Below, piece after piece: positions 9,786 to 10,615 of a stretch of 40,536 bases of DNA; positions within the stretch are counted from its first letter, which is position 1, and the number at the start of each line of letters is the position of its first letter. The notes under the pieces were generated by a model that saw nothing but the letters and a program-made list of their open reading frames with translations, was not told where the DNA came from and did no database searches. Both the position numbers and the translations under genes were made by a program. Source of the DNA: Candidatus Saccharimonadota bacterium (GTDB taxonomy: Bacteria > Patescibacteriota > Saccharimonadia > Saccharimonadales > Saccharimonadaceae). The stretch covers positions 1-40,536 of the forward strand of contig JAUSMW010000050.1 in the NCBI GenBank assembly GCA_030645815.1, written 5' to 3'.

Positions 9786-9833
9786 TATCTCAATTCGTTG
9801 ACAATGGTTTTTGACTATCAATATACTGAGATA
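9786..9833. promoter_or_regulatory. Candidate operator: inverted TATCTCA/TGAGATA sites around the operon promoter
   Basis: TATCTCA (9786-9792) and its exact inverse TGAGATA (9827-9833) bracket the predicted -35 and -10 of the ATPase-like operon. A third copy in direct orientation lies at 9385-9391 in the leader of the adjacent HTH gene. The placement suits a repressor or a DNA-bending MerR-like regulator. Seven-base sites also arise by chance, so this is tentative. Confidence 0.4.
9798..9827 (+). promoter_or_regulatory. Predicted promoter of the rotary-ATPase-like operon, leaderless
   Basis: TTGACA (9798-9803), an 18-bp spacer and TATACT (9822-9827). The ATG at 9833 starts 5 bp after the -10, which is where transcription itself should begin. 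The first gene is thus predicted to be translated from a leaderless mRNA. No Shine-Dalgarno is present, in agreement. Confidence 0.65.
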
Positions 9834-10615
9834 TGCCTAAATTTCTGTTCGTGTTAGGTTTTATTTGTGTGCTTGCTGTGGCACTTGTTTCGCCTGCATT
9901 TTCTCAGGAAGAACAAAATATTTCACTTGGAATTGCCAATTACGTTACTATTTCCGGAAAGGATATTAAAGATGGAGATATTATTACATCAAGTGAGAAA
10001 GGATATTTCAAAAGCAAAACTCCCTACGACCCTTTAGTTATAGGAGTTATTTCTATAAAACCGGCTCTTTCTATCAACATCGAAGGTTCACAAGAATCAA
10101 GCTATCCTGTTATAACGTCGGGAAATGTTGAAGTAAACGTCTCAAGCATAAATGGAGACATCAAGGAGGGGGATCTTATTACATCATCTTCTATTCCGGG
10201 TGCGGGTATGAAGGCAAATCAGACAGGCTACATAATTGGGCGTGCGCTGGACCCTTATTCCTCACGGGACAAAAGTGCTATTGGAAAGATCAATATTGTT
10301 CTTAACCTGCACTATTCATATTCAAGTTCAAAAACTCCCTCCAGGATAAGTGATATTCTTAATTTAAGTGTTCTTGCAACCTATGAATCTCCGTCCGCAG
10401 TTTTTAAATATGTCGTGGCAGGAATAATTATTCTTCTGTCATTTATTCTTGGTGTATTTTCATTTGGCCGTGTAGCAAACACGGGAGTAGAAGCACTCGG
10501 TAGAAATCCTTTGGCCGGAAAAATGATCCAGCTTGGAATTGTTTTTAATGTACTAATAACTCTTTCAATTATTGCAGCCGGATTTGTAATGGCTTTTCTA
10601 ATTATCAGATTATGA
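9833..10615 (+). CDS. Subunit c-like hairpin protein with a large extracellular N-terminal domain
   Basis: The product has 260 residues, against about 75-90 for a normal c subunit. It has a signal peptide (1-24, PAFS-Q) and an exported domain (about 30-165) with [36 protein letters not shown] and IIGRALDPY. This pattern is shared with domains of bacterial surface-fibre proteins (peptidase G2/tail-fibre-like). A C-terminal two-helix hairpin follows: TM1 about 191-213, a cytoplasmic loop with [11 protein letters not shown] (RNP 224-226) and TM2 about 232-258. Loop motif, topology and first place in an F1 operon match F-type subunit c. At the position of the ion-binding Glu/Asp in TM2 it has Thr243/Leu244, and TM2 has no acidic residue. 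It therefore should not carry protons or sodium. A ring-forming or anchoring role is inferred. The start follows the promoter by 5 bp. Confidence 0.75.

Follow-up and report, generated by a model that had tools for sequence, protein, structure and literature searches.

The window (the whole stretch of DNA that was analysed, 40,536 nucleotides of a Candidatus Saccharimonadota assembly) carries on its forward strand an ORF at 9833-10615 that encodes a 260-aa fusion protein resembling subunit c of the ATP synthase. Its first 24 residues ([24 protein letters not shown]; 9833..9904) form a putative signal peptide with one Lys, a hydrophobic core and the residues A-F-S followed by Q, and the homologues have signal-like N-termini too. 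Next comes a predicted exported beta domain (residues ~28-168; 9914..10336) that is of the phage appendage or decoration type by sequence and fold matches and contains the motifs GDIITSS, [13 protein letters not shown] and IIGRALDPY. A subunit-c-type hairpin, recognized by profile and structure matches, occupies residues 186-260 (10388..10612). Within it lie the GRNP loop (residues 223-226; codons at 10499..10510), of which RNP is invariant in 145/145 homologues, and Thr243-Leu244 (10559..10564), which in an alignment with canonical c replace the ion-binding Glu/Asp. ORF, motifs and profiles all agree with the original prediction that a c-type hairpin and an exported domain of the surface-fibre type are joined in one protein.

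A promoter-like site, TTGACA-N18-TATACT (9798..9827, forward strand), matches the consensus at 11 of 12 positions and ends 6 nt upstream of the fusion gene's ATG. This spacing is only suggestive of a transcript that may be leaderless; the site is the top-scoring one of the region, where the number of such sites is at chance level. Directly upstream, also on the forward strand, is a gene for a small MerR-type HTH protein of 69 aa (9426..9635). In other families, a MerR-type HTH forms the cytoplasmic N-terminus of giant fibre proteins encoded beside c, and the 69-aa protein presumably belongs to the same system.

The fusion gene opens an operon with the order c-b-delta-alpha-gamma-beta-epsilon, all on the forward strand, in which the genes overlap or are closely spaced. 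The b-like stator subunit (10612..11289, 225 aa) has one N-terminal transmembrane segment (residues 6-24) and a long helical tail, and was assigned by its position in the operon and by a b-family profile in homologous loci. A Pfam scan of the window b-like protein matched no b family, and its spectrin/plectin match was put down to coiled-coil composition. The b-like stator subunits of L053, L059, L062, and L063 are without any transmembrane segment. The delta/OSCP-like subunit (11286..11741) is mainly the C-terminal domain (Pfam OSCP, E 5e-6, profile positions 64-167 of 172).

Alpha (11731..13203), identified by Pfam, NCBIfam and alignment, retains the Walker A motif GDRKTGKT and the Arg finger SVTRVGRQAQ; its N-terminal extension is shortened, with ~15 residues fewer ahead of the barrel than canonical alpha, and it is nearest to the F-type alpha models of NCBIfam, below their cut-offs. 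Gamma (13182..14054, 290 aa) was matched by Pfam ATP-synt (E 9.5e-27). Beta (14182..15549, 455 aa) retains the Walker A motif GGAGVGKT and the catalytic Glu in GVGERIREG, and NCBIfam identifies it as a true atpD (474.9 bits, cut-off 462.85). Epsilon (15552..15824, 90 aa; Pfam ATP-synt_DE_N, E 4e-9) is the N-terminal beta-sandwich alone and lacks the C-terminal inhibitory helices, which in the canonical subunit inhibit hydrolysis. Catalytic residues are retained across the family: Walker A, the catalytic Glu and the Walker B region of beta, and Walker A and the Arg finger of alpha. The short epsilon and shortened alpha N-terminus would fit a hydrolysing motor with an altered stator joint.

Subunit a (PF00119) was not found in the window operon. 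Compared to an ATP synthase, the operon has catalytic alpha and beta, gamma, epsilon and delta (by Pfam), b (by position and transmembrane/helical form only) and the c hairpin; it has neither subunit a nor the ion-binding Glu/Asp in TM2 of c. The assembly has a single PF00119 match, and it lies on a different contig, C63, along with a canonical c. However, the window contig was probably misbinned, i.e. assigned to the wrong genome, because its MreB and alpha have affinities elsewhere and the assembly has 6.12% contamination. The window MreB (6654..7673, forward strand) had no match at E 1e-20 in the sampled Saccharibacteria genomes of the same family and is 60-71% identical to its matches in other Patescibacteria classes, and the window alpha groups with non-Saccharibacterial loci in a quick alpha tree. 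The canonical a and c of C63 may therefore come from another cell.

A plain Pfam scan of the window protein did not find ATP-synt_C, and we therefore used profile-to-sequence tests instead. When a profile made from the fused hairpins only was run against all ORFs of the fetched loci, it recovered canonical c subunits alone outside the family (best E 7e-7). Profiles from either half of the family likewise found only canonical c besides the family itself, and column-shuffled hairpin profiles, searched against the same ORFs as a control, found zero canonical c. Against the whole PDB, the top 11 matches to a profile of 22 fused hairpins were c subunits (best E 2.6e-5). The predicted hairpin, modelled as a single chain, superposed on c chains at 1.3-1.8 Å (probability 1.00), with 1.3 Å over 67 residues for the window hairpin and Chloroflexus c. 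Comparison of the window protein with 101 whole genomes gave matches to stand-alone small ORFs (over residues ~175-257) that include canonical c beside canonical alpha; these are PF00137 matches in G065, G071, G074, and G095. The PF00137 match of the fused hairpin itself was below threshold (E 0.11) and spanned the whole model. Alignment to canonical c by hhalign was weak for the full fusion (E 1.5e-4, 30 columns); the hairpin alone gave E 2.7e-7 over 34 columns, an aligned part that scarcely exceeds the loop. The similarity to subunit c proposed in the original prediction is present in these searches, and, judged by profiles and predicted models, the fused hairpin is truly homologous, by descent, to subunit c of the ATP synthase. 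The glycine motif of TM1, which serves ring packing, is weaker in the fusions (mean 2.4 Gly per 25 residues, compared to 5.7 in ordinary c), and a ring may therefore be loose or absent.

Canonical c has a Glu/Asp at position 20 or 21 after the R of RNP in 21/21 distinct sequences compared. These positions in the window fusion are Thr243 and Leu244, and the only acid within residues 186-260 is Glu220, just N-terminal of the loop, so that both helices are acid-free, as had been claimed for TM2. The acid of the c site is missing in 143 of 145 distinct fused hairpins; position 20 is acidic in two sister homologues only, and position 21 in none. Orthologues with Glu/Asp in TM2 had been named as evidence against the prediction. 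The loss at the Thr/Leu site stands across the family, and the two sister sequences are a small exception to it. These sequences (L106:4709-5533 and L109:2066-2890, from sister MAGs) have an Asp exactly at the canonical ion site. Their operons are also without subunit a, and one may ask whether the Asp is a reversion or a relic. Some other homologues have acids at TM2 positions 12 or 15.

The exported domain has relatives both in phages and on the cell surface. Stretches of the window domain are 36-45% identical to large surface ORFs elsewhere in the phylum. A model of a Saccharibacterial homologue (mean pLDDT 93.6) was compared to a viral structure library, and its exported domain matched phage preneck appendage, tail and tropism proteins (best E 7.7e-9; ~150 residues covered at rmsd 2.7-6 Å), with a weaker fold match to capsid decoration proteins. 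The model of the window protein, which is poorer in the first half of the exported domain, gave the same phage-appendage class. The anticipated similarity to fibre domains, peptidase G2 included, was also seen, with Peptidase_G2 itself matched weakly and in homologous fibre proteins. A Pfam 5_nucleotid_C match in the exported domain occurred in only 1 of 34 homologues and was treated as chance.

Large surface proteins carry the same domain close to their C-terminus; one of them (L146) stops immediately ahead of a c-fusion gene. At least eleven non-Saccharibacterial loci have a gene for a large MerR-type-HTH protein beside c, mostly divergent from it; these proteins have the HTH in the cytoplasm, usually one detectable transmembrane segment and a fibre-like exterior. 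The giant HTH surface proteins (L181:9882-12195, L190, L188, and others) could be membrane-tethered regulators or sensing fibres. Giant fibres are absent beside most Saccharibacterial operons. A regex count of fibre ORFs scores zero in the Saccharibacterial loci and in the window and is too strict as a linkage statistic. In Saccharibacterial loci, a conserved protein of ~340 aa with a weak bactofilin match is encoded downstream of epsilon on the opposite strand (L036:10591-11613, reverse strand), and beyond it is a row of exported proteins. The window is otherwise rich in large surface proteins. Among these is a protein of 3268 aa that has both LVIVD and fibre-like repeats (30290-40096), in which we searched for a copy of the c-fusion domain and found none.

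The variant operon is widespread in the Patescibacteria. In the 80 best named loci, mostly from Saccharibacteria, the order c-b-delta-alpha-gamma-beta-epsilon is kept up to the contig ends with a single exception, L151, which ends within alpha. In an even draw of 380 Patescibacteria genomes, full-length fusions were found in ~60, of which 40 belong to classes other than that of the window assembly; in most of these 40 further loci F1 genes are found alongside the fusion, sometimes in altered order. Among 49 genomes with the variant operon that were checked, at least 13 (G085, G093, G143, G163, G203, G228, G239, G315, G329, G352, G359, G361, and G380) have neither PF00119 nor an above-cut-off PF00137. 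Completeness is ≥94% in 12 of the 13, and four are single-contig. Since these genomes keep the operon without a canonical a or c, it is no accessory of a normal Fo. A quick maximum-likelihood tree of alpha (unrooted) separates canonical from variant sequences by one branch (SH-aLRT 100%, length 1.0); as the variant alpha has a branch of its own, the operon is no recent decay product.

At five loci (L049, L050, L058, L061, and L064) a c-fusion gene stands alone, with no F1 genes, next to giant fibre genes; the adjoining proteins are of 1,000 to >3,000 aa. Four of these loci have rplU and ileS nearby, and three of the five fusions carry a Glu halfway along TM1.

We consider it somewhat probable that the operon encodes an ion-uncoupled F1 rotary ATPase with an Fo converted to mechanical output, which would turn a crown of surface domains or put load on it. 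We infer the ring, its rotation and the fibre load; the parts themselves rest on sequence and fold. Ordinary c has its N-terminus outside, its loop inside and its C-terminus outside. The signal peptide would place the N-terminal domain outside, with TM1 running inward, the RNP loop in the cytoplasm and TM2 running outward. Given the topology of ordinary c, a fusion at the N-terminus would therefore leave the gamma/epsilon contact free and display one domain per copy. The c-fusions would assemble into a ring, like that of 8-17 c copies in F1Fo, attached to gamma/epsilon through the invariant RNP loop, and the exported domains, one per ring copy, would form the crown on the outer face. ATP hydrolysis in the cytoplasm would then turn the ring, or keep torque on it, without ion movement. 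The load would be giant membrane-anchored surface fibres that share the domain or are encoded adjacent to the operon; by common domain and gene neighbourhood these are the leading candidate. Cytoplasmic ATP would in this way move, twist or release surface fibres, plausibly during attachment to a host cell. A bolder form of this proposal, which we regard as possible and advance only tentatively, is a motor class new to biology: F1 would spin an ion-inert c-ring with a phage-derived crown and transmit torque through the membrane to giant fibres, by which Patescibacteria would move along, grip or release their hosts. The lack of subunit a is a difficulty for a motor, as something must keep the b stalk beside the ring, and one clade has a b without a transmembrane segment.

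One alternative is that nothing turns outside the cell. A ring or oligomer of c-fusions would be a static platform that anchors surface domains or fibres, and F1 would be locked or act as an ATP-sensing brake. The stand-alone c-fusions beside giant fibre genes suggest that the fusion can serve without a motor, and the weakened TM1 glycine motif points the same way. However, the catalytic residues of F1 have been kept over deep divergence and gamma and epsilon are always encoded, which a passive anchor would not need, and we judge this explanation to be unlikely. Somewhat less likely again is an export or assembly motor, in which cycling of F1 would power the secretion of surface proteins, or their polymerisation, through or beside a c-type oligomer, like the type III export ATPases. 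The F1 relatives FliI and SctN act in this manner and the operons adjoin arrays of exported proteins, but the full set of gamma, epsilon, delta and b together with a c-type hairpin suggests a rotary layout, and no secretion-pore protein is conserved within the operon.

Another possibility is that ion movement persists, by way of other residues or of a subunit a borrowed from the canonical enzyme. The Asp at the site in two homologues and the acids at TM2 positions 12 or 15 in some others would be consistent with this; however, the window hairpin is acid-free in both helices and canonical a and c are both missing from at least 13 genomes, and we consider persistence of ion movement very unlikely. 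The particular version with a borrowed canonical a was rejected, as those 13 operon-bearing genomes have no a. Least of all do we credit decay of a duplicated ATP synthase, or a hairpin that arose by chance and is unrelated to subunit c: subunit a and the acid are indeed missing, but gene order, catalytic residues, the RNP loop and the fusion are conserved phylum-wide, and descent from c is backed by independent profile tests. The ion-uncoupled rotary ATPase is the reading that we prefer, as the most economical one.

The variant operon shares with canonical F1Fo the subunits alpha, beta, gamma, a delta type, epsilon, a b type, a c hairpin with RNP loop and the catalytic residues. In contrast to it, the variant has no subunit a, has lost the c acid and has c fused to a signal peptide and surface domain; its epsilon is without the C-terminal helices, the alpha N-terminus and the delta N-domain are reduced, and its alpha is on a separate branch. 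N-ATPases (alternate F1F0) are ion pumps having a and c. They likewise occur in many genomes as a second F-type operon beside the canonical one, whereas the variant has neither subunit a nor the c acid, and the alternate-F1F0 models (TIGR033xx) score below atpA/atpD on the window alpha and beta. The exported domain shares its fold and weak sequence matches with phage domains (Peptidase_G2, XM1 gp53, and Pam3/E217 cement protein); unlike the phage appendage, tail-fibre and decoration domains, it belongs to a membrane rotor subunit and to giant surface proteins of bacteria.

By comparison of gene content and setting, the nearest functional analogues are the F1-like X0 ATPases of mycoplasmas, whose membrane parts are unrelated. 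These are of Type 2 (gliding in M. mobile) and Type 3 (with MIB-MIP) (PMC3369863, PMC8406192, PMC11864180, PMC12994834). Antibody removal by MIB-MIP has been tied to such an ATPase (PMC12994834), and such ATPases are a precedent for surface machinery powered by an F1-like enzyme whose membrane part is not Fo (PMC12994834, PMC11864180). Both systems belong to reduced bacteria that depend on a host, and in both an additional F1-like ATPase has a membrane part that is not Fo and is tied to surface proteins, and an alpha-like subunit without the N-terminal helix. In Type 3, one of the membrane proteins has a signal peptide, an ectodomain and two C-terminal transmembrane segments (PMC12994834). The X0 proteins have no similarity to a, b or c according to their authors (PMC3369863), whereas the variant operon has homologues of c, b and delta. 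For the window alpha and beta, the best-scoring models are of the atpA/atpD type, and those for MMOB1660/1670 and MSC_0618/0619 score far below cut-off; none of the operons examined has a counterpart of the mycoplasma 12-TM protein 1 or large protein 5.

Rotary ATPases are taught as ion machines. In this phylum-wide family the ion path appears to have been removed, with motor and rotor kept and given an outside face; if the ring turns, a c-ring couples cytoplasmic ATP directly to extracellular motion. This bears on how Patescibacteria, tiny and mostly uncultured bacteria, attach to and exploit their hosts. It also bears on the seemingly incomplete ATP synthase of many of their genomes: a survey of rotary ATPases counted an enzyme as functional only with alpha, beta, gamma, a and c, and attributed missing subunits mainly to incomplete genomes (PMC11738941). 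A 2012 survey found no equivalent of the mycoplasma F1-like system in other bacteria (PMC3369863), and with the variant operon there would be two reduced, host-dependent lineages in which F1 has, apparently separately, been redirected to the cell surface. We found no description of this operon in the literature covered, which leaves out subscription journals and most preprints.

Four loci (L197, L198, L199, and L214) have a single F1 operon flanked by two different c-fusion genes, which possibly give a mixed ring or two alternative crowns. Upstream in the window are genes for a PEGA-domain membrane protein (5130..6332, reverse strand), whose neighbourhood is retained in several families, for MreB, which is near the variant operon also in G248, G352, G163, and G269, and for a WecG/TagA-type glycosyltransferase (8045..8857, forward strand), likewise close to the variant operon of G248 and G352. 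Genes for PEGA protein, MreB and WecG recur around the variant operon of several families (L186, L209, L215; G269:C19), which raises the question of a link to cell shape or the envelope.
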